A stretch of 43,192 nucleotides of DNA from a virus. Below, one piece after another: positions 8,425 to 37,955 of this stretch (its first letter is position 1; each line of letters opens with the position of its first letter). A model generated the notes under the pieces. The model was not told where the DNA came from, made no database searches, and was given only the letters and a program-made list of their open reading frames with translations. The stretch lies in the IMG/VR virus record IMGVR_UViG_3300019487_000050, positions 1-43,192 of that record; one strand, written 5' to 3'. Made by a program: the position numbers and the translations under genes.

Positions 8425-11400
8425 TTAAAGTTTATCAGTTCTGTCTATATAGCCAAAATTAGAAGCAATTTGTTGATTTCTAGCAAAATGTTTCTCTATC
8501 ATAGCAGCAATTAAATCTTCTAATCTGTTTAAATTATCAAACTTCACATTAACAGCCAAATTTGGAATTCTATAGTTTAAAGTTGTTTGTTCTTTTGAAC
8601 CACCTGTAACAGCTGGGGCAGAACTTGATACAGATGCTTTGTTAACCGTATCCTGTATTTTTGTTTCAATACCAGCAATCTGAGCTTCAAGCATCTTAAT
8701 ATGTTCTGATCTGTCCGTATGACTTTTAGATCTCTGGTCATTAACAAAGAAAGATCGTACATTCTCTACCCAAGAAGTTTGAGAATCAGTTTGCTTCAAC
8801 TGAGTAAGATCCGATATCATCTGATTCTTCTTCATAGTCAACACATCCAATTGACTATCAAAACCTAAGTTAGAAGAAGTTGGTCCTTTTGGAACATCTT
8901 CTAAAAATGGTCCTTGTATTTTACCTTGCACAGGTTGAGATGCTGGTTTAGTAATCTGTTCAGGTGGAACTACCGCAGGCGGCTGATTACCTCTAACCTT
9001 ACTTTGATCTATCGCAGCAGTAGGTAATGGAGGTGGTGTAGAAGATTTTATAGTTACATCTCTATCCCTTGCTTCACTTGCTGCTGCGGTTCCAGCACCT
9101 TGTGCTTCTGCTAATGCTGCCTGTCCTCCTAAGCCACCGGACTTGTAAATATTTTCTGCTTGTTGTTGAGCATAATTTCCAAGTTCTCCTGCAGCTAAAT
9201 TCCCCCTTAGCATTTGTTCTGCAAGACGAGCCTGATCATCACCTCTACCAGTGGTGTAAGCTAAAGTTTCTGGACCCTGTGGAGTTAATTGACCTTCTCC
9301 ATATGCAGAAAATTTAGTTGATTGGACTCTACCTGCCCGTTGTGTTAAATCTCCACCTGCATTTCTAACCGCACCACTTACGGAGGAAGTAATCATTTTA
9401 AAACTATTTAATCCAGCTGCAAGATTTTGTTCTTGCGTTATCATAATTTTAGTAAAACGTCCAGCCCCTGTGTTCATAGCACCAAGAGCGCTAATCCAAC
9501 CATCTTTCAAAGCTCTTGTCTGTTCAGCCTCTTGTTGTTGTTTTTGAAGAATCTGACTTCTAAAATCTAAACGTTTCTTTTCCAGTTCAAGAATACTCTG
9601 TTCAGAACGCTTTCTTTGTTCTGGATCATTTGAATCTGCCAACATTTGTTTATGTAGTGCTATTTGTCTCTCATTTCGTTGAGACATTTGGCGTATCATA
9701 GCGATTTCAGCATGTAATGTTTGAACTATCTGTTGTCGCATAGCTGCAGAAGCGCCAACACCAATAGCTAAACTATCAGCCAATTGTACGGATTGAGAAG
9801 CCAGCTGTGTTTGAGATTGTAAAATAGACAATTCACCTTTAAGGCTATCAGACATTGCAGAACGAGCTTTAACAATATCCATCTCGATCTGGACTCTAGA
9901 TTGTGCTACCTTGTTTAATTCAGTTTCAAAATTAATCTGATCTAATGTTTCAACGCCTTGCTTTTTCGCAAATTCTGCTGCAGTGGTTTGTTGTTCAGCA
10001 GATAAAGCCTCACCCTCATTTATCCTTTTACGAATTTCGGTTATATTATCTAATTGATTTTGGTATTTTTGAGATTGCGAAACTAAAGTATCCAAGAATC
10101 CTTGTAATTCTGTTTCTGGAACAGTACTAACCATTTGAGAGAATTGCAATACTGTATCAAATAGACCCTGCATAGACTGCGCTCGTTGACCTAAAGCTTC
10201 CACGGTTTGAAGCTCTTTAATCATATTCTCATTAATTGCTTGAATCAAAGACTCTTGAAGACGGTAATTTTCATTCGCATCACGAACATAATCAGCACCC
10301 TTCAAAACTGTTAAATTTTGTTCTTCCAATTTTTTAATCAGTTTTGTAGCTTCGTCGGCTTGTTGGGAAAGTTTATCTCTTTGTCCTTTGATTTCCACAC
10401 GACGGGCTTCAGAAATATCTCCATTTTGAGATTCATAATCTATTTGAGATATCTGACCAAATATTTGTTCTCTTGCATTCTTTAATTCCCGTATTCCCTT
10501 TTTACCATCTCTACCTTGCTTAACAGCAAAATAATCCTGTCCTGCAAAATTAACACGATTTGCTTCAGTTGTAAGATCAGCAAACACTCGTTTATCCGCA
10601 TCCCCCCTAGATTTTTCTGCTATCTTAAGACTATTTGTAATAGACAAAAACTCTTCTGCACTCACCGGCATTTGCCTAATACGATTTACCCCCGTCTCTA
10701 TTTGCTTATCTGTTTCAATACGTTTTTTCTCATCTAAATCAGCTAATGTTTCTCTATTTAAAGTAGATATAAAATCAAGAGCTTGTTGTTTGCCTGCATC
10801 GTATTTTCCCGCAGTACCATCTACAACTCTTTGCTTTTCTTCTTCTCCTAATCCAACTAACTTCATTACACCATTATACAAATCGCCTGCATTAACAGCT
10901 AATCCAATTACCCCGCCAACAGCTGCCCCTACTGCAGTTCCAATACCAGGAATAATACTTCCCAAAGCAGCGCCACCAAGAGCATAAGATCCTGCTTCTG
11001 CTAATGTTCCTCCTACACTCAGCACTCCAGCTGTTCTATAATTACCTTTTTCATTCTGTTGTTCCGAAAGATAATCTAGACCATAACTAGCGCCCGTTAA
11101 TGCCAAAGCAGGAAGTCCAAATCTTAATGATCCAGAACCAAGTTTAGCAAATGTTCCCATACCACCTGCACTAGCTGCTAAACCAGCACCTGCAGGCAAC
11201 GAAGATGAGGCTCCCGCTGCATCTCTGGCAACTCCAGCACCTCTACCAAACATAGAGGCAATAGCTCCACCCGCTGTTAGTGCTTGACCGCCAATTGCCC
11301 ACAATTTTCCGCCTACCCATATTGCAGACAAAATTTTCAACATGCTTATAAGTTTATCTACATGAGATACCGCCCATTTTACACCATTACCAAAAATCTC

Positions 11401-12431: not shown

Positions 12432-12851
12432 TTAAACTGTGCCTATTAATGCATCTAGTTGCAAACCTATAATATTAGCTATAGCTGGTTCTAATTGATA
12501 AACAGATTCTTTTGTGGCAGGAATTGGAGCGTCCTCATTTGCTTGATCTGTCAAATCCCAAGATTTTAACAATTCAGACATTCTGTTTAAACGTATTTCT
12601 AAGGGCTTAATTGTAATAAAATTCTCGCCAGTTGTAGAAATGCTACCTGCTATATCAACTAAATCTCCATAGCATGGTCTTTTAAAAAAAGCTGTATGTT
12701 CTCTAATAGTAGTTATATCAAGTGCTTTTTCCCAAATATCTAACAAATTTTCTTTTGTTGTTTCAGCCACAACACTATTGCCATCTTTTGTGAATCCATA
12801 GCAAAATGTTATTTTAACTTCTTCTTCTTTTTTAACTAGTATACTTCTCAT
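12432..12851 (-). CDS. Second tail-assembly-chaperone-like protein (paralogue)
   Basis: A 139-residue protein with an ATG start preceded by a strong AGGAGA Shine-Dalgarno about 5 bases upstream, lying 9 bases after the stop of the frameshift product. Its middle (IRLNRMSELLKSWDL, then an acidic stretch, P-P and a helical C-terminus) aligns by eye with the same region of the 149-residue chaperone just upstream (MRINKLIEAWDL, acidic, VP...). This suggests duplication of the short chaperone gene. It sits directly before the tape measure, so a role in tail assembly, keeping the tape measure soluble, is likely. The family assignment rests on this local resemblance and position. Confidence 0.55.
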   Translation of the reverse strand: MRSILVKKEEEVKITFCYGFTKDGNSVVAETTKENLLDIWEKALDITTIREHTAFFKRPCYGDLVDIAGSISTTGENFITIKPLEIRLNRMSELLKSWDLTDQANEDAPIPATKESVYQLEPAIANIIGLQLDALIGTV

Positions 12852-12860
12852 TTTTGTCTC

Positions 12861-13537
12861 CTAATTTTGTTGTTTCTTAAATGCTTTTGCTAAAACATCT
12901 TTACCTTGACCACGTAATTTATACATAACACTTATTAAAGTAGTTAACATATCTACGTCTCTATATGGTAAATTTCTAATATAGTCTAATTGCCATCCAA
13001 ACTCCAGTGCTAAAAAGAACTCACTGACAAACGGCGGTATCTGTCCTGCAGGATTTTCCCCCTGCAGAATGGATGATACCGCCGATACTATTTTCCCTCT
13101 TCTAAAGGATCTATAGAAACAGTCTGTTCAAACTTATCATATATCGCAGTCATTATATCTGGTGGCATCTTTCTCAAAAATGCTTCAGAAACAGGAACTT
13201 CTTCATCATCTATTTTTAAGTCCCAAGCCTCTATGAGCTTATTAATTCTCATATTTCTGTACTTATACCAATCCATAGTTGTTTGCCCAGTCATATCGTT
13301 AATTTGAGATGACTGACTAACTATCTCGTTCTGACTTTCCCATTCTGGAACTCTAAATTTCACATTTAAAACTTCGATATTCCCCTTTTTCTCTTCGATC
13401 ATCTTCTTTGCTTTTTCATCATTAACTACACGAAATATCGTATCTCCTGACGGCAACTCTACTTCCGTGTAATATACCGTTACTGTAACAGTATGAGGTT
13501 TTTCAGACATAACATATTTACCAAGATTACCAGACAT
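12861..13537 (-). CDS. Tail-assembly chaperone, long form made by -1 frameshift
   Basis: The 149-residue short form ends gag gga aaa tag. The heptamer G GGA AAA (plus-strand 13091-13097) is a canonical X XXY YYZ slippery site. A -1 shift there enters a frame with no stops that adds 76 codons, starting I-V-S-A-V and ending at a TAG at 12861-12863, for about 225 residues in all. The extension includes FGWQLDYIRNLPYRDVDML, which resembles the T domain of lambda-type G/GT chaperones, where the short and long forms together load the tape measure. The extension has no start codon or Shine-Dalgarno of its own near its beginning. I checked the extension codon by codon and found it open. This explains the 236-base apparent gap before the next gene. 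Confidence 0.88.
13032..13097 (-). promoter_or_regulatory. Programmed -1 frameshift signal: slippery heptamer plus two-tier hairpin
   Basis: On the minus strand, GGGAAAA (complement at 13091-13097) is followed by a 6-base spacer (TAGTAT). Then comes a stem in which CGGCGGTATC (13075-13084) pairs perfectly over 10 bp with GATACCGCCG (13032-13041). Inside it a second 7-bp stem, CTGCAGG (13061-13067) with CCTGCAG (13046-13052), has an 8-base loop; the two stems are separated by short unpaired strands. Slippery site, spacer and stem have the arrangement expected of an efficient -1 frameshift stimulator. The GC-rich stem stands out from the AT-rich surroundings. Confidence 0.88.
13088..13537 (-). 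CDS. Tail-assembly chaperone, short form (G-like)
   Basis: The 0-frame product is 149 residues, starting at an ATG with GGAG about 9 bases upstream. An in-frame internal ATG at codon 10 is a weaker alternative. The protein is beta-rich at the N-terminus and acidic/helical towards the end (KFEQTVSIDPLEEGK). It terminates at a TAG that is the first codon after the slippery heptamer, so ribosomes that do not shift make this form in excess. It lies between the tail-tube-like genes and the tape measure, the usual place for gpG-type chaperones. Its C-terminal region resembles the 139-residue protein downstream. The role in loading the tape measure is by family analogy. Confidence 0.82.
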   Translation of the reverse strand: MSGNLGKYVMSEKPHTVTVTVYYTEVELPSGDTIFRVVNDEKAKKMIEEKKGNIEVLNVKFRVPEWESQNEIVSQSSQINDMTGQTTMDWYKYRNMRINKLIEAWDLKIDDEEVPVSEAFLRKMPPDIMTAIYDKFEQTVSIDPLEEGK

Positions 13538-13625
13538 CTTTTATCTCCAAGTTAATATTCTTATTAGATTATCTACTGATAATAATCGACTGATTAAATA
13601 CCAAAGATGTATTATTGACAAGCAA

Positions 13626-14612
13626 TTAAAATACAAAGCCAACACCCTGAGAAATCGTTGAAATCTCATTGTCAGCGGGAAGGGAAGTCCAATCAATAGC
13701 AGTTTCAAATATATCGTCTGCTAAAGAAATCTCTTCTATTCTAAAAACTACATTAGGGATTTTAGCTAAAAAACCATCAATATCTATAGCACATGCACTA
13801 GTAGAACATCCAACACAGTAAGATTGATAACCAAATTCTACAACTGAATATTCATAACAACGTGCTGGATTATCAAGAGAATATTGTGCTAAGTTAGGAT
13901 GTCTACCCATTAAAACTACTTTACCATCAATATCTCTATTTCTTGGAGATATATCTTTTACTTGTAAGATTCTGCGACCACTTGAAGTATAATATCTCTC
14001 TAAGCTGTTATTAACAGTAACTTCAAATTGCCTAATATATTCCCCACCAACACTAAATTGCGGAGTTCTTAAGGCTACTATAGCATTATCCCAAGTTGCA
14101 ATTTTTCCATTAGGGATACTTTTTCGTTGAAAATTATAAAACTCTCTGCTTTTTCCAAAAATATTAACATTTATCCTGATAATATCTTCAGCTTTTACAT
14201 TAAAATTAAATGTATTTACATAACAATCTAAAAATCTAAATGTACTATTTATGTTACTATGTTTAACCAGAATATTAAAAGGATCTAATCTACCATAATA
14301 ATTACGTCTAGCAGTTAAATTCCACAAGGTTTCTGTTGGGTCTTCACCACGTACTGTATCATTGATAACAACAGGATATTCAATTGAACCTTCAATTTTT
14401 TCAGGTAGATATTGTATAACATTACGATCATAAAATATGTCGTATACATTTGGCTTGTTTACTTCTTGCGATAATTTTAAATCGCAAGAAGTAACACGAG
14501 CCTGATATAAATGAGAAGTGTTTTGTCCAATTAGACCATTAGAAATATTACCAACATCAAATTGGCAATATCCTATATAGCCCATTGGTACTGGGGGAGT
14601 ACCAAATGCCAT
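13626..14612 (-). CDS. Tail tube-like protein B
   Basis: A 328-residue protein with an ATG start. It is clearly paralogous to the gene just upstream in transcription: both begin MAFGTPP, both have an EGS-EYP motif around residue 75-80, a (F/Y)R(F/Y)xDCxVNTF motif around residues 125-135, a block with (Q/R)RYYT and RDIDG-(F/V)VL-GRH, and near the end VFRIEE-SL-(N/D)D-FET with SLP. The predicted composition is beta-rich. The pair lies just before the tail chaperones and tape measure, the normal place for the major tail tube protein. A CVGCSTSAC cluster near residue 265 is specific to this copy and could be disulphide or metal related. Which copy builds the tube, and whether the other is a tube cap or minor tube protein, cannot be read from sequence. 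Confidence 0.65.
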   Translation of the reverse strand: MAFGTPPVPMGYIGYCQFDVGNISNGLIGQNTSHLYQARVTSCDLKLSQEVNKPNVYDIFYDRNVIQYLPEKIEGSIEYPVVINDTVRGEDPTETLWNLTARRNYYGRLDPFNILVKHSNINSTFRFLDCYVNTFNFNVKAEDIIRINVNIFGKSREFYNFQRKSIPNGKIATWDNAIVALRTPQFSVGGEYIRQFEVTVNNSLERYYTSSGRRILQVKDISPRNRDIDGKVVLMGRHPNLAQYSLDNPARCYEYSVVEFGYQSYCVGCSTSACAIDIDGFLAKIPNVVFRIEEISLADDIFETAIDWTSLPADNEISTISQGVGFVF

Positions 14613-14631: not shown

Positions 14632-15606
14632 TTAGGAAATAACCGTTCCACCAGTTTCCAAATAAGCTGGATCTTCTAAATCCAAATCATCTGGCAAGGA
14701 ATGGAACTGTATAGTTGTTTCAAAAACATCATTGGTTAATGACATTTCTTCTATTCTGAAAACGCAATTTGGAACTTTTACCAAGAAAGTTGAGTTACAT
14801 TGATCTCTGGTTAATTGATATCCAAATCTTACTACGCTTTCTTCGAAACAACGATCCTCATTGGTTCTTGCGTGCTCACCAAGTTCCTCATGACGACCTA
14901 ATAATACAAATCTACCATCAATATCTCTCTTGCGTACCGCAATATCTTGTGGAGAAAGTAAACGATTTAATGTGTAATATCTTTCAGCATTGTTGTTGTA
15001 AGTAATTTCAAAACTTCTTACATATTCACCTGAAACATCGGGTGCACCTCTAGCTCCAATAATTTCCACCACAGCATCATTCCATGTAACTACACGAGTA
15101 TTTGCTGGGAATCCTGGAGAGCTACGAAGCATTGGACCGATTGTATCTTTTTCACGAAAACGACCAATTAAACCGCTATTGATCATTACTCGGTCTGATT
15201 GTGCAACGCTAAATCTAAAGGTATTAACAAGACAATCGCGATAACGAAATTCTGAGAATTGGCTAGTATAACGTACAGCAAGATTAAAAACGTTAGTAGC
15301 GCGAAGTTGACCAAAACGACTGCCTGATGTTTCACGACCTACACAAGCACGATAGAGTCTAGCAGTGGGATCTACTCCCCCCTGTCTTTCCATTATTGCA
15401 GGATATTCAACACTACCCTCAACAACTTGTGGTCCAAGACGATAAGTGGAACGATCAAAACGACCGTCAATTGTATCTTCCTTTGAAACTTCTTGCATCA
15501 AACGAGGATCAGCTGACGTTGCTCTTACTACAACGCTCTGATCGGGAAATTCGTAGCGGACGAATCCGACGAATCCCATATATGCTGGAGGGGTTCCGAA
15601 TGCCAT
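14632..15606 (-). CDS. Tail tube-like protein A
   Basis: A 324-residue ATG-started protein, 19 bases upstream of its paralogue. It shares with it the MAFGTPP start, the VEGSVEYPA motif, the RYRDCLVNTFRFSV block, ERYYTLNR, RDIDGRFVLLGRH, and VFRIEEMSLTNDVFET near the end. DNA here is a little less AT-rich than in the second copy, which may reflect stronger expression or selection. The position between connector-like genes and the chaperone/tape measure set fits a major tail protein. No Ig-like decoration domain is visible at the C-terminus. The tube assignment is inference from order, length and duplication; I did not recognise a named family. Confidence 0.68.
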   Translation of the reverse strand: MAFGTPPAYMGFVGFVRYEFPDQSVVVRATSADPRLMQEVSKEDTIDGRFDRSTYRLGPQVVEGSVEYPAIMERQGGVDPTARLYRACVGRETSGSRFGQLRATNVFNLAVRYTSQFSEFRYRDCLVNTFRFSVAQSDRVMINSGLIGRFREKDTIGPMLRSSPGFPANTRVVTWNDAVVEIIGARGAPDVSGEYVRSFEITYNNNAERYYTLNRLLSPQDIAVRKRDIDGRFVLLGRHEELGEHARTNEDRCFEESVVRFGYQLTRDQCNSTFLVKVPNCVFRIEEMSLTNDVFETTIQFHSLPDDLDLEDPAYLETGGTVIS

Positions 15607-16070: not shown

Positions 16071-17261
16071 TTATGTTAAAACGTCTACCGACAGGATACT
16101 TTTCCTATCGTCTACAACTTCTCTCAAAACACTATCTAAATTAATTACAAAAACTGAATTTGAATACCTTTGTGAGATTTCCAAGCATTTCTTAATTTTC
16201 TCTTCTTTTTTTTCTTTAGATAATAATAAATAGGATTCTACCTGATTTGCAATACTCTCTGGCGAACATATTCTATATTCATGACCATATTCGCCTATGA
16301 ATGGAACCGATGAAATTTCGCACAAATTATCCGAAATTTCATATAAAATGTCTTTTGATGCCAATGTCATACCAAACATAGGGATACAACCACATGACAT
16401 TGCCTCTAACACAGCCATCCCTACTAATGACTGACCAGCGGTGTCTACATACAAACAAGATTTGCTATAAATATCTCTTAAATAATCATCAGAAACACCA
16501 TGAATTAAAGACGAATATTTACTCGGCAGTACAACACTATTTTCTACATCAAAACGTCTTATTAACTCAGGTATGTCATGTTCTCCAGCATCATCTATGT
16601 TAGTATGTAAAATTGCCTCAAATTCTATATTTCTCTCTTTTAAAAGTCTCAAAGATTGTAAAAAACATCCAATATTAGATAATTTATTATTACGTAAAGC
16701 TGCTGCAATTCTTAATTTAGAATAGTCTTTTTTGCCATCAAAAGTAAATTTATTCAAATCTATACCTGGATGAGCATAAAGATACGAAATATTACATTTT
16801 TCTATCGCTAATGCTGTTTCTTTATTTGTACAGATTGCATAATCAATTTCACTTAGTTCTTCTTTTATCTGCGGGGTAATAAAATGAGGAAGCATAGTTA
16901 AAATAGCCACCCATTTAAAACCCTTAGCATATTTTTGTTTTATAGCATGAATAAAAAATGTTTCTTTATAATCTCCAATAGTCAAAACTATATCAGGTTG
17001 GAAATTCTTTATTACGTCATAAACCTGATTAATCATTTTTTCCTGCAGATTAGATAAAGAATGTAATCTGCAGACTTTATGCGGATTTTCATAATAATAT
17101 CTGGCATCTGATTCATCTACTAAAAAATAAGACGTGTCATGTAACCATACAGCACTTTCTACCGTATGATCCTGTGATTTTAGATGGTTAATAACAGAAG
17201 AGTTAATCTTTCCTAAACTAGTAAGCAAATACGGAGATGCTGATATAGTTAGTATTTTCAT
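16071..17261 (-). CDS. GT-B glycosyltransferase (family 4-like)
   Basis: A 396-residue enzyme expected to transfer a sugar from a nucleotide-sugar donor. The N-terminus MKILTISASPYLLTSLGKIN is the typical first Rossmann strand and glycine loop. HPGIDLNKF at 164-172 matches the hinge motif of GT4 enzymes (GvDl-kF), and GMAVLEAMSCGCIPM at 281-295 is the donor-binding motif with Glu286. The first glutamate of the usual E-x7-E is replaced by Ser278. The ATG comes 2 bases after the stop of the upstream neck gene, so it is co-transcribed within the structural operon. It could glycosylate virion proteins or alter host surface sugars; the acceptor cannot be read. A partner epimerase lies at about 28 kb. 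Confidence 0.82.
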   Translation of the reverse strand: MKILTISASPYLLTSLGKINSSVINHLKSQDHTVESAVWLHDTSYFLVDESDARYYYENPHKVCRLHSLSNLQEKMINQVYDVIKNFQPDIVLTIGDYKETFFIHAIKQKYAKGFKWVAILTMLPHFITPQIKEELSEIDYAICTNKETALAIEKCNISYLYAHPGIDLNKFTFDGKKDYSKLRIAAALRNNKLSNIGCFLQSLRLLKERNIEFEAILHTNIDDAGEHDIPELIRRFDVENSVVLPSKYSSLIHGVSDDYLRDIYSKSCLYVDTAGQSLVGMAVLEAMSCGCIPMFGMTLASKDILYEISDNLCEISSVPFIGEYGHEYRICSPESIANQVESYLLLSKEKKEEKIKKCLEISQRYSNSVFVINLDSVLREVVDDRKSILSVDVLT

Positions 17262-19226: not shown

Positions 19227-20360
19227 TCATCCTATTAAATCCTCCATATCCTTTGCCTTTTTCTCTTTCTGCTTCATAAAAGTACGAGCAGCTTGTGTAT
19301 TGCAGCCTTTTACTACGGCATTTCTAGGATCGGAGGCGTGTCTTATAGATCTAATTTCTATAGGCAAAGACAGCTCTCCTACTATATTTTGTACTTTCTT
19401 GCAAAATCCTTTAGGGGATGATGTACCACCAGCTAATACAATTTCTACGGGATATTCAAAGAGATTTTCGTTCTGTTTTGAACTGGCTTTAACCGCCTTG
19501 AATCTATCAGCAAACTTACTAAATACGAATTTAATAGCCTCTCCATAGTAGATATCTAATGCATATTCAACATCATCTTCCATGTTTGGCTCTTCTAAAT
19601 TTAACTTCTTTTCTTTTATACGAGTTACATGACTAACATTAGTACTTGTTGCTTTCGCTACACTACTATCAATCCAGTCTCCAGATCTTGCAGCGGACAT
19701 TGACAAACCTGGAATTTGTAGACCACGATATGCTGCTACCAAATTAACTCTGCCTGCACCAAAAGAAATACCTATCCCGCTGTAAGGAATTTCCTTACCT
19801 TCTTCTATTGAAACAGGATTTTCAGAAAGAATAACTGCATATCCCTCTTCGATGACAGAAACTTTCCATCCCAAGCTTTGGAAGATACCAGATAATCTAC
19901 CTTTATGATAAGAAGAATCCACACTATCATCAACAGAAGGAGAAGATACGCATGTACAAACAACTGAATCTTCGGTTGGAGCTTTTCCTATACTTCTTCT
20001 TATCAAATCTGTTAATACCAAGAATTTCTTTTCTTCTCCCTGGTTAAGCACACCACCTTGTAATGGTCTGCGAAGTTCAATACCAGGAAACATATTTGCT
20101 ACTCTTATACTATCTTCGCCAACAACGAAGAAAGAATCCTTATCTTTTATATATTGCCATCCATTTCTTTTCAGATGGTCTTCCATATCTTCTGTGTTCT
20201 GTAATTCAACAAACGCATTACGAGTAATTTTGATTGAAACATCATCAGGATTATCAGGACTAGATTCAGCAACCTGAAAAAACATTGTCCCAACATCAAC
20301 GCCCAAAACTCTTGGCTTAACCATGACAACCTTCTCCTTTGACTGTTTATTTATCGACAT
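19227..20360 (-). CDS. Actin-like ATPase (ParM/MreB/Alp superfamily)
   Basis: A 377-residue protein with the signatures of the actin/Hsp70 nucleotide-binding fold: phosphate-1 loop LGVDVGT at 19-25, phosphate-2 loop ISFGAGRVNL at 198-207 followed by GDWIDSSVAKA, and the adenosine motif LAGGTSSPKGF at 309-319. The length suits bacterial actins and is too short for Hsp70, with no substrate domain. The first ATG has AAAGGA at good spacing; codon 13 (MVKPRVLG) is also preceded by AAGGAGAAGG and could be an alternative start. The gene is in the middle of the structural operon, 6 bases from the connector-like gene. Phage actins are known in some systems for positioning DNA or replication sites; filament formation here is inference. 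Confidence 0.82.
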   Translation of the reverse strand: MSINKQSKEKVVMVKPRVLGVDVGTMFFQVAESSPDNPDDVSIKITRNAFVELQNTEDMEDHLKRNGWQYIKDKDSFFVVGEDSIRVANMFPGIELRRPLQGGVLNQGEEKKFLVLTDLIRRSIGKAPTEDSVVCTCVSSPSVDDSVDSSYHKGRLSGIFQSLGWKVSVIEEGYAVILSENPVSIEEGKEIPYSGIGISFGAGRVNLVAAYRGLQIPGLSMSAARSGDWIDSSVAKATSTNVSHVTRIKEKKLNLEEPNMEDDVEYALDIYYGEAIKFVFSKFADRFKAVKASSKQNENLFEYPVEIVLAGGTSSPKGFCKKVQNIVGELSLPIEIRSIRHASDPRNAVVKGCNTQAARTFMKQKEKKAKDMEDLIG

Positions 20361-31760: not shown

Positions 31761-32050
31761 ATTAAACCTCTTTCACGAGATATATTTTGTACGCAAGAAA
31801 AAAGAGAATTTAGCGCACTTGCTAACTCAGGATTATTGCTTGCTTCTAAAAACAAATCATCTACAGAAAATTTAATTATCTTAGGACCAATCTCAACCGC
31901 ACCATATTCATCAATTTCAATATACGGAGTTAGTGTAATATCTACTTTAACGGTTTTATTTGGTCCAGCAGATCTTGTTCTTAAATTCATCCAATATTTA
32001 TCATATACTTTCTCAGGAATAACTAACGGATTTTCACCAGTAATCGGCAT
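31757..32050 (-). CDS. Small unknown protein, first gene of the left operon
   Basis: A 97-residue protein with an ATG start preceded by AGGAGATTATT. It begins MPITGENPLVIPEKVYDKYW, has a beta-rich middle (TVKVDITLTPYIEIDEYGAVEIG) and a helical end (LASALNSLFSCVQNISRERG). The same C-terminal pattern, out of frame, occurs at 32313-32375, so the gene seems to have had a second copy. It follows the longest gap in the window and may be the first gene after a promoter. Function unknown; the coupling to the DUF1617-like gene suggests a shared role. Confidence 0.62.
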   Translation of the reverse strand: MPITGENPLVIPEKVYDKYWMNLRTRSAGPNKTVKVDITLTPYIEIDEYGAVEIGPKIIKFSVDDLFLEASNNPELASALNSLFSCVQNISRERGLI

Positions 32051-32312
32051 AATAATCTCCTATTTTTTTATTATCGACTTAATATTTATTGTTAACCTAA
32101 AACATATTTTTAAGGTAAGATTATATATAATTATCTTGATTTATTATGCAGTTTTTGTTTGTATATGCTGGAACATATAAATAAAAAATATATAATAGAA
32201 TGATATATCTCATTACGTCCCATAAAAATATCTCCCCCTAACGGAGAATACTTCGTGACATAATGTCACGAAGTATAGTATATTTAATTTACCAGTAATA
32301 CATTAAAGTCGC
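32051..32312. other. AT-rich non-coding gap upstream of the left operon
   Basis: No convincing gene is seen on either strand. It is the longest coding-free stretch. On the minus strand a TATAAT-like box (near 32121-32126) lies about 70 bases before the ATG of the 97-residue gene, but its -35 region is poor, so a promoter is only possible. A perfect inverted repeat at 32248-32276 and a small TCTCC/GGAGA stem beside it (32231-32247) followed by a short T-run on the minus strand are the only structured elements. Confidence 0.4.
32248..32276. repeat. Perfect 14-bp inverted repeat with one-base centre
   Basis: ATACTTCGTGACAT at 32248-32261 is the exact reverse complement of ATGTCACGAAGTAT at 32263-32276. 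No T-run follows on either side, which argues against a simple terminator. The symmetry and the position, about 300 bases from a genome mosaic junction, fit either a dimeric operator or a recombinase site. Both are inference. Confidence 0.65.
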
Positions 32313-32375
32313 TTAAATTAAACCTTTTTCGCGAACAATGCGTTGAACACAAGAAAAAAAGAATTCTCATCGTTT
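32313..32375 (-). pseudogene. Broken second copy of the 97-residue gene's C-terminus
   Basis: Reading the minus strand, NSFFSCVQRIVREKGLI and a TAA (32313-32315) match NSLFSCVQNISRERGLI of the 97-residue gene, and just upstream in another frame is ELAQTM, matching ELASAL. One or two bases are gained or lost between the two parts, so the frame is broken. There is no start codon or ribosome site upstream; the preceding 110 bases read as Thr/Ser/Asn-rich sequence without similarity. It looks like a decayed duplicate, not a gene. Confidence 0.6.
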
Positions 32376-32490
32376 GAGCAAGTTCGATATCTTGAGAGGT
32401 ATTTGAAGTATCTGTGCATGTTGTTTGACTGGTCTCAATAGTACTATGATTTGAGTGATCATAACCAGATTCAGTTTCAAAAAATAAAAT

Positions 32491-32620
32491 TTAAAACCGT
32501 ATCATATATTTATTTCGCCTCATACCATATAATCGACCAATTTCTGCCGGAGATAATGCATAGTTAAATACCATCGTCTCATCAATCAAACCCGCCCAAA
32601 TGCCCGCCGCTGCTAAAGAA
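32491..32620 (-). pseudogene. C-terminal fragment of a LamG-like fibre domain
   Basis: In the frame ending at TAA 32491-32493 the minus strand reads AAAGIWAGLIDETMVFNYAL followed by SPAEIGRLYGMRR. This is the typical end of LamG/concanavalin-like domains (GxIDEVxIYNRALSxAEIxxLY) found in phage tail and fibre proteins. No start codon or domain core lies upstream: the DNA runs directly into the portal gene in a different reading frame. The exact fusion point is blurred because the two frames share GGCGGGCATTTGGGCGGGTT. The fragment is not expected to be translated on its own. Confidence 0.6.
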
Positions 32621-33217
32621 TTTGTTGGCGTACTTATCTGCCGCCTTGATCGCGGAAAGAGTGTCAGACATTAATTCAACAACGGAGTATCCTTTCAGTC
32701 CGTCAAAGCCAAGACCCGGCAAATGTAAGATTTCTCTTGCTTCAACTGGCACCCACTTTGACCGTCCGTCAACTTCTATTTCAACTGCATACCACGTGCG
32801 TAGAGTGCCGCTGCTGTCTGGTGCTCGAAACGGTTGCACCCGATCCGGCATCAAGTTGTAAAGAGCTTTCGGACGGCTACCGGAATACTCAATACGTGCG
32901 TATCCGTTTCCCCAGCCTACAGCGTGACTCTCTAACGTTTCCCAAAACGTGAACGGAATAACAAGATCATTGATTTCATCATTGACGATCCACGATAACG
33001 GGTGATCTTGTTTGTCTCTTTTCTCGCCAGTTTTTTTGTAGACGTGTTTCGGCAGTGCCGCGAACGCTTCAGACAAGAAACGTAAACCGGAATAGAAAGC
33101 CGGTATCGTCAATGCTGAAGCCGAATTCATCGGTAAGCCGTACTGAGAAAGCGGATCACCAATAAGATTAGTTGTGGTGACTGTAGTTACAAATTCTTCT
33201 TTGTTATCGTTAGACAT
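32582..33217 (-). CDS. HK97-type portal protein, truncated to 211 residues
   Basis: The ATG overlaps the terminase stop by 8 bases. The sequence has the HK97-family portal pattern: PAFYSGLRFLSEAFAALPKH near residue 38, HPLSWIVNDEINDLVIPFTFWETLE at about 75-100, GNGYARIEYSGSRPKALYNL then PDRVQPF at about 105-135, and LHLPGLGFDGLKGYSVVELM at about 170-190. Members are normally about 400 residues, but here the frame stops after KFFSSGGHLGG at 32582, so the crown, clip and most of the wing are missing. It is therefore probably non-functional as a portal. The stop falls at the junction with the LamG-like fragment. Confidence 0.85.
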   Translation of the reverse strand: MSNDNKEEFVTTVTTTNLIGDPLSQYGLPMNSASALTIPAFYSGLRFLSEAFAALPKHVYKKTGEKRDKQDHPLSWIVNDEINDLVIPFTFWETLESHAVGWGNGYARIEYSGSRPKALYNLMPDRVQPFRAPDSSGTLRTWYAVEIEVDGRSKWVPVEAREILHLPGLGFDGLKGYSVVELMSDTLSAIKAADKYANKFFSSGGHLGGFD

Positions 33218-34799
33218 AAGCTATTAAACCGTCCATATTTTGTTCCACGTCGTCACTGACTCTTAGCATTGCTCGTGCTATTCCAATGATTGTGGCTACT
33301 ATTCCATCTACTTTGTATTTATTACTACCGTGATATCTGCCTTTTGCCTTTGGCTTAACTGGTCTAATATTTCCGTGGCGATCCGATTCCACTTCAACAT
33401 TACCGGCCATCCACCGCATACACGGATTATTTTGAATCACGATTTGCTTAGTCGTGAGCCGTCTTTCAAACTCTTTGCAAGCGGTACTCATTGCCAGATA
33501 TGATTGATACACCGGCACTGTTGTAATACCGGCATTATCGAGCTTGGCCGTAATCTGATTTGCGTTATACGGATCAAAGCCGAATTCAATGATTGGATTC
33601 GTGACCGCGAGATTCATCACTTCATCAACAATGAAATCGTGGTCAATGACTTCGGCTTTTGGTATCTCGATTATGTGACCGTCTTTTACCCACTGTCGGT
33701 AATCTATGCCGTCTTCTTTGCTCCTCTTATCAACTTGCATTTCCGGCATGTACAGACGTGGCACCACGTACCACTTATCGGCTTGCGGATAGATCGTAAT
33801 CAGAGCCGTGATATCGTGTATCTCTGACAAATCGAGAGCGACAATACACGGCTGTTTGTCGAATTGCTTTTCGTCAAACTTGGCTACGCACGAATCATAA
33901 AGACCCAGTGACAACCAACGTGTTTGTTGTTCCGTCCACTGATTGAGATACAGACGACGAAAGACGTTTTCGAGTGCTGGTGTTTCTTTCGCCTTGATAC
34001 ATTCTTGGTGGTAGAATTCTTCCGGCACCGTTACGCCAAGTGACGGATTGGCTTTGTACCACGTCTTCGGATCATCCCACGCATCTTTAGCACCCGCCGC
34101 AAAGATAGCCGCATAGAACGTGTCGTCTTCGCTCTCGCCTTTCAGTGTCTTTACTGCCGTGTTGTGAAGCTCGCGGCAGATTGTTTCATCGCCGCCGTAA
34201 CCGGCTGTAGTGATAACAATGTTGAGTGGTTGCCGTCTGGCACCTTGCGAGCTTGTGAGTGCGTCCCACAACTCGCGATCCGGTTGCTCGTGCATTTCGT
34301 CAAAGATCAAACCACTGACAGAGAATCCCATTTTGCCTTTTGGCTTGCCCGACAAGCAACGTAAGACACTATTTGACTTCGGGTGTTCGATATGCCAGCG
34401 GCAGATTTTCAGACGCTTAGAAAGCTCCGCACTGGCGGATATGATCTTCTTTGCGTTGTCGAATGTGATTGATGCTTGTTGTGTGTTGTTGGCCGCTGAG
34501 TAAACTTCCGCTCCTTGCTCATTATCCGCAAGCAACAAATACAAACCAATACCAGAAGCAAAGAAGCTCTTACCGGCCTTACGTGGTACTTCGATGTAGA
34601 CGGTGCGGTAACGACGTAGATCGTCGCTCTTTCGTTTCCAACCGAATATGTCGCGGAGTATCTTTCTTTGCCACGGCAACAGTTTGAAGCGTTGCCCGGC
34701 ATACTCGCCTTTCCAGTGAACTAATAGCGTTTCAAAGAATCTGCAAACTCGATCCGCCGCTTGATTGTCAAAGTAATACTTATCTTGATCGACCGTCAT
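33210..34799 (-). CDS. terL: Terminase large subunit (HK97/Terminase_1 type)
   Basis: A 529-residue ATPase-nuclease that drives genome packaging. The ATPase domain has a Walker A-like VPRKAGKS at 71-78, Walker B GLIFDEMHE at 163-171 and a coupling motif NIVITTAG at 193-200. The nuclease domain has an RNase H-like acidic triad: Asp323 in ALDLSEIHD, Asp409 in EFGFDPYNAN and Asp498 in KYKVDGIVAT. The length is usual for the family and nothing is missing. The base composition is clearly higher in GC than in the genes left of 32 kb. It is followed immediately by the truncated portal and preceded by the small subunit, the standard order. Confidence 0.95.
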   Translation of the reverse strand: MTVDQDKYYFDNQAADRVCRFFETLLVHWKGEYAGQRFKLLPWQRKILRDIFGWKRKSDDLRRYRTVYIEVPRKAGKSFFASGIGLYLLLADNEQGAEVYSAANNTQQASITFDNAKKIISASAELSKRLKICRWHIEHPKSNSVLRCLSGKPKGKMGFSVSGLIFDEMHEQPDRELWDALTSSQGARRQPLNIVITTAGYGGDETICRELHNTAVKTLKGESEDDTFYAAIFAAGAKDAWDDPKTWYKANPSLGVTVPEEFYHQECIKAKETPALENVFRRLYLNQWTEQQTRWLSLGLYDSCVAKFDEKQFDKQPCIVALDLSEIHDITALITIYPQADKWYVVPRLYMPEMQVDKRSKEDGIDYRQWVKDGHIIEIPKAEVIDHDFIVDEVMNLAVTNPIIEFGFDPYNANQITAKLDNAGITTVPVYQSYLAMSTACKEFERRLTTKQIVIQNNPCMRWMAGNVEVESDRHGNIRPVKPKAKGRYHGSNKYKVDGIVATIIGIARAMLRVSDDVEQNMDGLIAYV

Positions 34800-34835
34800 T
34801 AACTGCTATTCGCCTCATACTTATTTGCCTTTCGC

Positions 34836-35228
34836 TTAAAAGAAATCTGTGTCGTCTTTGTCGTTGTCAACGTCCAAGAGAAAGCGTGATCGTGCTGTCG
34901 GAGTTAATCCGAATTCCGATAGCAACGGTCTAATTCTTTCCCACGCTTGATTGATCAATGTATGTGCCGGATGCTTAATTAGCTCGCCTTTTTGACCGAT
35001 TAAGAAATCTCCGTCTTTGGCGATTGCATCTTCAGCACGTCGATACACGGCCCAACTCTCGCATAGAATCATCAACGAGTAGTAATCGGAGTGACTAACG
35101 ATCCGCTGTGGTCCCAATATTTCCACGAGACGTTTCCACGCTTTGGCCGCTTCGCCTTTGAAATGCTTTGGCGGTTTCATTTCTACTTGTTCATCTAATG
35201 CAAACGGGTTTGGTTTTCTGCCTTTCAT
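34836..35228 (-). CDS. terS: Terminase small subunit (P27 family)
   Basis: A 130-residue protein that recognises phage DNA for packaging. I start at the ATG giving MKGRKPNPFA because P27 proteins usually begin M(R/K)GRKP; an upstream TTG adds only six residues. The core PKHFKGEAAKAWKRLVEILG, SDYYSLMILCESWAVYRRAE, HPAHTLINQAWERIRPLLSE and LTPTARSRF matches P27, and the acidic end (DNDKDDTDFF) is common. It lies 36 bases upstream of terL and downstream of an HNH gene, the normal cos-phage arrangement. Confidence 0.9.
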   Translation of the reverse strand: MKGRKPNPFALDEQVEMKPPKHFKGEAAKAWKRLVEILGPQRIVSHSDYYSLMILCESWAVYRRAEDAIAKDGDFLIGQKGELIKHPAHTLINQAWERIRPLLSEFGLTPTARSRFLLDVDNDKDDTDFF

Positions 35229-35232
35229 TTCG

Positions 35233-35373
35233 TCAATTCCGTTCAAAACTGCTAAATAACCGTATGAAAACTGAAGAGACCACGATTCGGTCCCCGTCTT
35301 TTGAGCCTAAAAGTTTTGGACCGCCTACCCCATATTTGATCTCACTTTTTATACTGGATTCATTCGATTTCAT
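35233..35373 (-). CDS. Possible small ORF between HNH and terS
   Basis: A 46-codon frame from an ATG (complement 35371-35373) to a TGA 4 bases before the terS ATG. It encodes a small basic peptide with YGVGGPKLLGSKDGDRIVVS. It fills most of the 160-base gap between HNH and terS, and translation into terS would be coupled. No strong ribosome site is seen, and no family is recognised, so it may be only a leader or a chance frame. Confidence 0.3.
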   Translation of the reverse strand: MKSNESSIKSEIKYGVGGPKLLGSKDGDRIVVSSVFIRLFSSFERN

Positions 35374-35390
35374 TTGTTTTATTCCAATTC

Positions 35391-35762
35391 TCACGTTGTT
35401 TTACCTTTCGCTTTCCGTTCCGATGCTGATTTGATTGAATGACACCACTTGCACAACGCTTGGCAATTGGATCGTTCAAGCTCTAAGTGTGGTGCGTCTT
35501 TACGTGGTATGATGTGATCTACTTCGTATGCGTAATTATCATTGCAGATATTGCATACTGGCTGCTCACCTATCACTTGATTACGTAACGCTTGCCACGC
35601 TTTGGATCGGTAGAATTGCTTAGCTGTTGTGTCTCTTGTCGTCTTGTCCCACAACGCTTGATACTCTTGATATGTTTTCTCGCCTCTCTGCTCGTGTCTC
35701 TCACAGTAGCGATGCTCGGTATAGTTTGGACAACCGGGCCACTTACATGATCTCTTTGGCAT
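35391..35762 (-). CDS. HNH endonuclease
   Basis: A 123-residue protein with an ATG start that overlaps the stop of the preceding gene by one base. It has the HNH nuclease core with zinc cysteines: C70-x2-C73, YEVDHIIP (Asp82, His83), a later Asn99, and C104-x2-C107 with His108. A further Cys6/Cys11/Cys20/His23 group near the N-terminus could bind a second zinc. HNH nucleases next to terS/terL are typical of cos phages of the HK97 kind, where they assist terminase in cutting at cos. This context supports that role. Confidence 0.93.
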   Translation of the reverse strand: MPKRSCKWPGCPNYTEHRYCERHEQRGEKTYQEYQALWDKTTRDTTAKQFYRSKAWQALRNQVIGEQPVCNICNDNYAYEVDHIIPRKDAPHLELERSNCQALCKWCHSIKSASERKAKGKTT

Positions 35763-36151
35763 TATGTGGTAAACGTCTTAATACAATCCAATATCCATAT
35801 TGCTTTGAATTTGTTTGCTGCTCCGCTGGTCGGTGTTACAACAACTTCCGCTTGATACTTGATACCGTTTCCACCTACCGGCCAATTCGTACCGGCTGCA
35901 TACCAAACGAAGTCCCACCCGATATCATCTTCAGTCCAACCGTTATTTGTTTGGAGCGAATCCTTAACTGAGACTGTTTTATCAAGCGTACCTGTTGATA
36001 TCTGAGTTTCAGTATCAAGCCGTGTTACTCTGTAAGTAATACTCTCAACAGTTGCTTGTGTAATGTAGTCGTCTTCAATATCTGTTAGTCTGCCTAACAA
36101 TGCTGCGGCACTGCCTTGTATCACCGTGCCGTAATAAATCATTACTTTCAT
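35762..36151 (-). CDS. Unknown 129-residue structural-like protein of the GC-richer cassette
   Basis: ATG start. The beta-rich sequence (MKVMIYYGTVIQGSAAALLG, ESITYRVTRLDTET, KYQAEVVVTPTSGAANKFKA) suggests a small sandwich or barrel. No cysteine pair of note and no membrane segment. It overlaps the HNH gene by one base and follows a 106-residue gene by 14 bases. No family is recognised; a fibre accessory or head-tail role is possible. Confidence 0.55.
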   Translation of the reverse strand: MKVMIYYGTVIQGSAAALLGRLTDIEDDYITQATVESITYRVTRLDTETQISTGTLDKTVSVKDSLQTNNGWTEDDIGWDFVWYAAGTNWPVGGNGIKYQAEVVVTPTSGAANKFKAIWILDCIKTFTT

Positions 36152-36165
36152 AAACTCTTGTACCT

Positions 36166-36486
36166 CTAAATACTCACCACTTGAGCCGCTTTGGTGCCGG
36201 GTGTATATGTACTGCTCTTGCGTGATCCGACTGTAAATACCTCTTGTTTCTGCGTTCCAACAACGTGCAAATCTTGTGTCTGTGGTCCGGCAATGTGAAT
36301 ATCTTTGTCCGACGTGACGGGAAAGACGGCTAATTCATTTGCTCCACTGATATGTATATCGGATGCAACAAAATCAATCGGTAATCCGTCTGCCTTTGGA
36401 TCGAGTAGAAATCGGTGCCAATCATACAACGTGAAATTTGCCCACTCATCAAGCGTAAATGTTTTCCAATCCTTTAGCATTCTCAC
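36166..36486 (-). CDS. Unknown 106-residue protein with DW-rich start
   Basis: ATG start. The N-terminus has a repeated pattern (DWKTFTLDEWANFTLYDWHRFLLD) in which a W/F-T-L-D-x-W unit recurs, then a region with DIHISGANELAVFPVTSDKD, DIHIAG and DLHVVGTQKQEVFTVGSRKS, another repeated beta motif (D-x-H-x-(S/A/V)-G). This looks like a short beta-solenoid or peptide-binding structural protein. Family unknown. It sits 9 bases downstream of the beta-helix gene. Confidence 0.5.
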   Translation of the reverse strand: MRMLKDWKTFTLDEWANFTLYDWHRFLLDPKADGLPIDFVASDIHISGANELAVFPVTSDKDIHIAGPQTQDLHVVGTQKQEVFTVGSRKSSTYTPGTKAAQVVSI

Positions 36487-36495
36487 TGACTCCGT

Positions 36496-37932
36496 TTAGT
36501 ACGCGAATGAATGTTCTGAACCACCGCCGCCAGTACATTCGCTTTGACCGGCTCCAATGTCTGTATAAGAGACAGTTGGATTTGGTGAGCCGTAACCGCT
36601 CTGCAACTGTAAGAATGACTGTTGAATGTTCTTAGCTTCGCTTGACGTGATACTAAAATCTCCGTCGTCTGGATCTGCCCACGGTGTTGTATTGGCCGAA
36701 TATGTTATTGATCCGCGAATGAGTAAATGATTGAACGTGGATGTAGTATCATTACCGATTTCACCGTCACCATTAGCCATTGTTCCAGAACCGAAACCAC
36801 AATTGGAAATGATTCCATTTCTTAGATCACTTGCGGCGGTATTTATGTTAATTCCCCACCCACCATTAGCTACGAGATTACAACTCTCAATCACTACGCT
36901 TGTTGGTACTGTGAATTCCATAATGATTCCGTCACCACCGTTATTATAACTATCACAATTCATTAACATTGTACTGGCACAATCAATATTGAATCCGTGT
37001 GATCCATTTGAATCTGCAATACATTGAATGAACGATGAGCCGTCAGTAATGTGAAAACCCATTGCGTTAGCAGTTGCATTATCGTGGCTAATACATCTAA
37101 CGAAATGACCTTCGATTGCTGCCGTCGTAAATCCACCATGATTAGCCGTATTGCTTTGATTGCAATCGTAAGCTTCGCATTCGTAGAACGTGCAATGATC
37201 CGCCGCACTGGTGATTTGAAATCCGGTTGTTCGTACTGAGAACGCACGACAATTAATTAATATGTTGTTGGCCGCTTGTACTGAGAACCCAACGTTAGCC
37301 GTTCCAGCGTTTCCGTTTTGTGATACATCGTGACGAAGAAATGTTGAATCTTCGCCAGTTATCGCGAACATCTGAAATGATGATCCGGTAGCTGGACCTT
37401 GATAATGTACACGTCCGAGACCGTCACCCGGAGTTACTGAATACGGCTCGAAAATAGTTGGACCGTCTAACGATCTGGCAATGACTGCGGTAATCGAATA
37501 AGTACCCGCCGCGATATTCACACGTGGCGTGTCACCACTCGTATTGGTCGTGTTTAGATCAACTATGTTATACGGAACGTCGATAGCTCCGGTTGGCGGT
37601 GCCCACGCTCCACCAACACGTAAGTTTCTTGTGAGTGCTCCGGTTGATACTGCTGATCCGCCGTCTGCCGTTGTTGAGACGGTGATTGTGGTAGAAGTGA
37701 CTGCGGTAATTCTCGCAATGTAGCCGGTGAATGTTGCCGCATTCGTGTGAACCGATGCGAACATTCCAACAGTCACACCGTCACTTGATGGATTGCCGCT
37801 TGCGACAGTAAACACTTTTGTCGTGTTGTCCCATGATCCGTTTGTGTAACTGGCAAAAGCCGCGTCTGTATTTGTTGATCCGGCATTAAGTGCTGATCCA
37901 CCGGAGCGAATGTAAAATTCTGTGTATGCCAT
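36496..37932 (-). CDS. Right-handed beta-helix tail spike-like protein
   Basis: A 478-residue protein with an ATG start. Its N-terminal 135 residues (MAYTEFYIRSGGSALNAGS and later VTSTTITVSTTADGGSAVST) form a beta-rich head. From about residue 190 on, the sequence shows parallel beta-helix rungs with stacked Asn/Asp/Cys and short turns: HCTFYECEAYDCNQSNTANH, CISHDNATANAMGFHI, CIADSNGSHGFNIDCAS, CDSYNNGGDGIIM and CNLVANGGWGININT. Such spikes in phages bind or cleave surface polysaccharide. No catalytic residues are assigned. It belongs to the GC-richer cassette by composition. Confidence 0.72.
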   Translation of the reverse strand: MAYTEFYIRSGGSALNAGSTNTDAAFASYTNGSWDNTTKVFTVASGNPSSDGVTVGMFASVHTNAATFTGYIARITAVTSTTITVSTTADGGSAVSTGALTRNLRVGGAWAPPTGAIDVPYNIVDLNTTNTSGDTPRVNIAAGTYSITAVIARSLDGPTIFEPYSVTPGDGLGRVHYQGPATGSSFQMFAITGEDSTFLRHDVSQNGNAGTANVGFSVQAANNILINCRAFSVRTTGFQITSAADHCTFYECEAYDCNQSNTANHGGFTTAAIEGHFVRCISHDNATANAMGFHITDGSSFIQCIADSNGSHGFNIDCASTMLMNCDSYNNGGDGIIMEFTVPTSVVIESCNLVANGGWGININTAASDLRNGIISNCGFGSGTMANGDGEIGNDTTSTFNHLLIRGSITYSANTTPWADPDDGDFSITSSEAKNIQQSFLQLQSGYGSPNPTVSYTDIGAGQSECTGGGGSEHSFAY

Positions 37933-37955
37933 TTTTTATTTCATATTCTCCGTTC

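Follow-up and report, generated by a model that had tools for sequence, protein, structure and literature searches.

Judging from its sequence, the tail assembly chaperone gene of an uncultured phage very probably carries a programmed -1 ribosomal frameshift like that of lambda G/GT. By this route a phage of bacteria would make two versions of the chaperone from a single gene. The gene, called G here, lies in a 43,192-base virus record from IMG/VR; we refer to this whole stretch as the window, and all features of the frameshift cassette are on its minus strand (Table 1). The slip signals are conserved across the relatives of this phage, which form a poorly known, uncultured and often large group, and the -1 frame extension of G, called T, is under selection.

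In the window, the 3′ end of the G gene reads GAG GGA AAA TAG, placing the heptamer directly before the stop codon as the original prediction had proposed. The string GGGAAAATAG occurs only once in the window (13097-13088), with a chance expectation of 0.12. A 6-nt spacer and a perfect 10-bp outer stem, Watson-Crick throughout, were also correctly called, as was a second 7-bp stem inside the first (CUGCAGG/CCUGCAG), which the minimum free energy (MFE) fold lengthens to 10 bp with the inclusion of two G-U pairs. The 75 nt past the slip site fold at -32.9 kcal/mol. When the extension was randomised synonymously 300 times, no version folded this well (z -8.0), and neither did any of 771 sampled same-strand windows, among which this hairpin is the most stable; the outer stem likewise was matched in 0 of 1000 synonymous randomisations. 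Among the loci described below, the hairpin is one of the strongest, behind that shared by L031, L032 and L034 (-36.6; contigs of 46% GC). The -1 frame runs on without a stop for 76 codons (13091-12864), closing with one at 12863-12861, and ORF callers would leave a 236-base gap (12852-13087), both as anticipated. A Glu-C peptide across the slip is predicted to be GKIVSAVSSILQGE.

Table 1. Coordinates of the chaperone cassette and its neighbors in the window.
Feature	Coordinates	Strand	Basis
Tail tube protein 1 (PF18906)	14632..15606	-	Family match
Tail tube protein 2, paralog of tail tube protein 1	13626..14612	-	
GGAG, probable ribosome-binding site of G, 7 nt before ATG	13545..13548	-	Read from sequence
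G gene, tail assembly chaperone, 149 aa, 0-frame product	13088..13537	-	ORF; homologs in 18 other contigs; Bacillus phage tail assembly chaperone homology via L033; predicted fold
Slippery heptamer G_GGA_AAA	13091..13097	-	X_XXY_YYZ conserved in 17/18 loci
TAG stop of 0 frame, directly after heptamer	13088..13090	-	
Spacer UAGUAU, 6 nt, stop included	13085..13090	-	
Outer stem, 5′ arm CGGCGGUAUC	13075..13084	-	
Inner hairpin UUCUGCAGGG-GGAAAA-UCCUGCAGGA	13044..13069	-	7 bp Watson-Crick core; 10 bp in MFE fold
Outer stem, 3′ arm GAUACCGCCG	13032..13041	-	
T domain, -1 frame extension, 76 codons + stop	12861..13091	-	Relatives match phrog_9001; dN<dS
AGGAG, probable ribosome-binding site of G′, overlaps T stop codon	12858..12862	-	Read from sequence
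G′ gene, 139 aa, G paralog without frameshift extension	12432..12851	-	Profile-profile match; fold
Probable tape measure protein, 1310 aa	8425..12357	-	Size and position

The position of G is that expected of a tail assembly chaperone in the lambda order, between the tail tube (PF18906) upstream and a large gene downstream that we take to be the probable tape measure because of its size and position; no tape-measure family match was obtained for its 1310-aa product. The tail tube genes of the window match PF18906 and phrog_290. They are tandem paralogs that are 42% identical, and the ORF lists examined for the relatives show one such gene. Several other features of the module and its surroundings were recorded along the way. 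An actin-like gene (19227-20360, minus strand; Pfam Volactin PF25216, E 3e-56) lies in the neck/tail module, with relatives in 16 loci and distant homologs in the records of two uncultured phages (485 and 595 kb). A 396-aa gene (16071-17261, minus strand) looks glycosyltransferase-like by eye, has no Pfam match, and occupies the same place, between the neck and tube genes, in L002, L014, L027-L029 and L036. Around the terminase and its neighbors (32000-40000), GC content is 0.41-0.46, up from about 0.34. At L009, an HNH endonuclease gene (PF01844; 6207-7112) is inserted between the tube gene and G; similar-looking ORFs occur at L008 (1708-2430) and upstream in L009.

Relatives were reached via the tail tube and the actin-like gene. 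Searches of viral_contigs with the window G alone or with the window tape measure returned no relatives, nor did two scans of genome_contigs with tube and neck profiles. After the removal of repeats, the G gene was found in 18 further contigs ranging from 32.7 kb to 548 kb. We dropped L013 and L015-L026, which come from the same contigs as earlier loci, and L027, which breaks off within the tube gene and lacks G; L003 corresponds to the G region of the L002 contig. L035 carries both G and T and has no usable slip site; its T is in the +1 register, G and G′ contain two more frame breaks over a span of 1.2 kb, and the locus was set aside because it is indel-ridden. The 18 usable loci are thus the window, L002, L006-L012, L014, L028-L034 and L036. 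They represent about 16 lineages, because L031, L032 and L034 are nearly identical. L034 does not differ from L032 around the site and was left out of the protein alignments, which cover 17 of the 19 loci.

An open, homologous -1 frame of 66-88 codons follows the slip site in all 18 usable loci, where the remaining two frames of the same region contain 5-12 and 1-12 stops. The stop or indel in the extension that would have spoken against the original prediction was looked for and appeared in none of these loci; L035 does have an indel there, alongside its other two frame breaks. The T alignment shows a conserved pattern around GWTLEYIRNL, and conservation starts directly at the slip site. In all 8 pairs compared, dN was lower than dS in T, with dS saturated in the distant pairs; for L031 and L032, dN was 0.01 versus a dS of 0.26.

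The slip site is conserved in kind and varied in sequence. An in-phase X_XXY_YYZ heptamer lies within two codons of the stop in 17 of the 18 loci, and the stop follows the site directly or one codon on in all of them. The heptamers are G_GGA_AAA (the window, L006, L031, L032, L034), G_GGA_AAC (L007-L009), A_AAA_AAC (L010, L033, L036) and A_AAA_AAA (L011, L012, L014, L028-L030). Loss of the heptamer, a second outcome that would have counted against the prediction, was seen only in the restricted sense that L002 has no exact X_XXY_YYZ. Its site, G_GAA_AAA (8521-8527), departs from the motif; re-pairing in the P site there would need a G-U pair at the second codon position, or else a single tRNA would have to slip on AAA before the stop. 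The control consisted of 247 ORFs on the sense strand, each 110 aa or longer, from 17 sources. X_XXY_YYZ occurs no more than two codons from the stop in 21 of them, comprising 15 of 16 G genes versus 6 of 231 others. Two such heptamer-and-stop combinations outside G were judged to be due to chance: one in L029 (3614-4018), which is followed by a PhoH-like gene with an ATG of its own, and one in L031 (5105-5794), where a PhoH-like gene ends ahead of a hairpin.

A stem placed at a regular distance from the heptamer is similarly widespread. We required stems to start 3-9 nt after the heptamer and compared them with 1000 synonymous randomisations per locus. The observed stem was matched by at most 13 of 1000 randomisations (1.3% or less) at 14 of the 18 loci and by at most 43 of 1000 (4.3% or less) at 16, and in these 16 loci the spacer is 5-7 nt. 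L029 and L030 showed no stem beyond the null at the expected place (183 and 260 of 1000). By total folding energy, 12 of the 18 loci were matched by no more than 5 of 300 randomisations, and the other 6 were not exceptional. The stem arms vary widely in sequence between loci. When arms were swapped among the 16 lineages (L032 and L034 left out), they scored a mean of 23.0 with their own partners versus 13.2 with those of other loci, and 0 of 100,000 permutations reached the observed sum. The arms therefore change together by this test, which bears out the co-variation of paired stem bases raised by the original prediction. In the MFE folds, an inner helix of 4 bp or more can be read at 9 of the 18 loci (the window, L002, L010, L012, L014, L031, L032, L034 and L036), and the two-tier form is therefore common to the relatives. 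The suggestion that the two-tier stimulator is unusual is thus weakly supported: it holds inside the AT-rich window but not among the relatives, where comparable stems are common.

The identity of G and T as a tail assembly chaperone is supported by several of the relatives and by predicted structure. Searched against named phages, the tube and G of the window, the tube of L012 and the T of L031 all gave no match, and the window's own G and T hit no named chaperone family by sequence. Across 17 loci, the T domain has a match to phrog_9001, "tail assembly chaperone", in 4 (best 1.6e-9) and G has one to phrog_9046, a family of unknown function, in 12; G of L033 matches Bacillus phage 276BB001 (tblastn, 27%, E 4e-5). 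In that phage (MN176231.1), gp27/gp28 is annotated as tail assembly chaperone, with gp28 a two-piece joined -1 CDS. Its heptamer is A_AAA_AAG followed at once by TAA, its T-like extension has a similar sequence around YELCKEFHCL, and its chaperone lies between the major tail protein and the tape measure protein, as it does here. Unlike the loci studied here, 276BB001 has no separate G′, its annotated tape measure starting 6 nt after gp28, and its stem begins well beyond the spacing of our loci (MFE fold of -15 to +75). The predicted model of G (mean pLDDT 88.8) has 2 BFVD matches with E≤0.001, each of which carries the name tail assembly chaperone, and a Haloarcula virus chaperone is among its fold matches (E 2.3e-3). 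A PDB search with the G sequence profile gave no match, and Foldseek of the G model against PDB gave 479 matches at E≤10 and 0 at E≤0.001. In the VIA list, the top solved structure for G is the HK97 chaperone 2ob9, with a Z of only 4.3, an rmsd of 4.9 and 94 aligned residues; given such a low Z and an identity of 8-13%, here and for the G′ comparison below, a shared fold is not proven. The modeling as a whole supports a predicted fold for G that is tail assembly chaperone-like.

The homologous extension, the heptamer, the stem, the annotated relative and the predicted fold, together with the gene position and a dS that exceeds dN, argue for the lambda-type G/GT frameshift in a tail assembly chaperone that was originally put forward. 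Three other explanations of the same region deserve consideration. It is very unlikely that ribosomes reinitiate or initiate internally just past the G stop to translate T as a gene of its own, with the heptamer being incidental. An in-phase ATG can indeed be found at extension codon 2-3 in L007, L008, L009, L011 and L014, but we disfavor reinitiation because the first 20 codons of T contain neither ATG nor GTG nor TTG in five loci (the window, L002, L010, L030 and L033), and yet T is conserved from the slip site onward. Reinitiation would also leave both the in-phase heptamer and the positioned stem unexplained. Even less probable is transcriptional slippage on the A run to yield mRNAs with a shifted frame. 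Such runs reach at least seven A at the site in L011, L012, L014, L028, L029 and L030; the window, however, has only four, which is our reason for disfavoring this explanation, and L007-L009 have three A followed by C. The 3′ stem is, moreover, kept at ribosomal spacing. We give the lowest probability to T being a decaying remnant or the product of a sequencing error that split one longer gene. Although L035 illustrates that indel-ridden contigs do occur in the set, the same split recurs across 18 contigs whose heptamers differ, with dN lower than dS and co-changing stem arms, and this idea is refuted in practice by these independent loci.

For the programmed frameshift, we infer the course of ribosome slippage, its rate and the roles of the proteins as follows. 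Most ribosomes would terminate at the TAG that follows GGGAAAA, yielding G, a protein of 149 aa. Some would be held up by the hairpin starting 6 nt downstream, and the held ribosomes may shift one base backward on G_GGA_AAA (GGA to GGG, AAA to AAA). Those that slip would read 76 more codons to produce GT, a protein of about 225 aa. By analogy with lambda, G would coat the tape measure protein, and GT would recruit tail tube subunits via T.

The heptamer used by lambda is G_GGA_AAG. It is listed as highly shift-prone in E. coli in PMC5009743. For lambda G/GT, that source describes -1 shifting at a low level close to the 3′ end of G, by which T is fused to a fraction of G, as proposed here, and the same gene order of tube, chaperone and tape measure. 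Unlike lambda, with which no sequence similarity was found, the loci studied here have the extra G′ gene. For the haloarchaeal viruses HCTV-1, -2 and -5, PMC5009743 lists g-t sites with G_GGA_AAC, as in L007-L009, and A_AAA_AAC, as in L010, L033 and L036; their hosts are archaeal, unlike here. Elaborate stem-loop stimulators are also described there, as is a correlation between efficiency and stem strength among dnaX variants (PMC5009743). One possible reason for the strong stems at our loci, judging from the same source, is that their heptamers are weak on E. coli ribosomes.

G′, a paralog of G, is present in 17 of 17 aligned loci, between T and the tape measure. It matches G in profile-profile comparison (hhalign prob 98.9, P 1.7e-17, with 17-sequence profiles), and the G′ and G models have predicted helices and strands in the same order. 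The BFVD matches of G′ are named tail assembly chaperone, and 2ob9 of HK97 is its second solved structure (Z 4.9, rmsd 4.2, 91 aligned). Given the homology and fold it shares with G, G′ is predicted to be a second tail assembly chaperone. Its own -1 extension is short (4-37 codons) in 15 of 17 loci and is not conserved; in L029 and L030 it runs to 100 codons, with no X_XXY_YYZ at the G′ end there. We tentatively propose, at rather less than an even chance, a three-part set made up of G, a frameshift-made GT and a separately translated, frameshift-free G′, in which two different chaperones would coat the tape measure and strong stems may offset the heptamers A_AAA_AAA and X_XXA_AAC that are weak on E. 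coli ribosomes. A limited literature search on duplicated chaperones returned nothing on point, which does not prove their absence.

Frameshifted tail chaperones are already known in tailed phages. They are called widespread in PMC5009743, PMC10885494 gives a count of 2397 joined chaperone genes in 3679 SEA-PHAGES genomes, and 17.5/17.5* of SPP1 is a further example (PMC6316719). The present analysis extends them to a poorly known uncultured group, in whose genomes automatic annotation would lose T. For one and the same gene, the 18 loci offer naturally varied slip sites and stems, which are useful for relating heptamer, stem and ratio to one another. The conserved G′, for its part, raises the testable question of how tape measures are coated.
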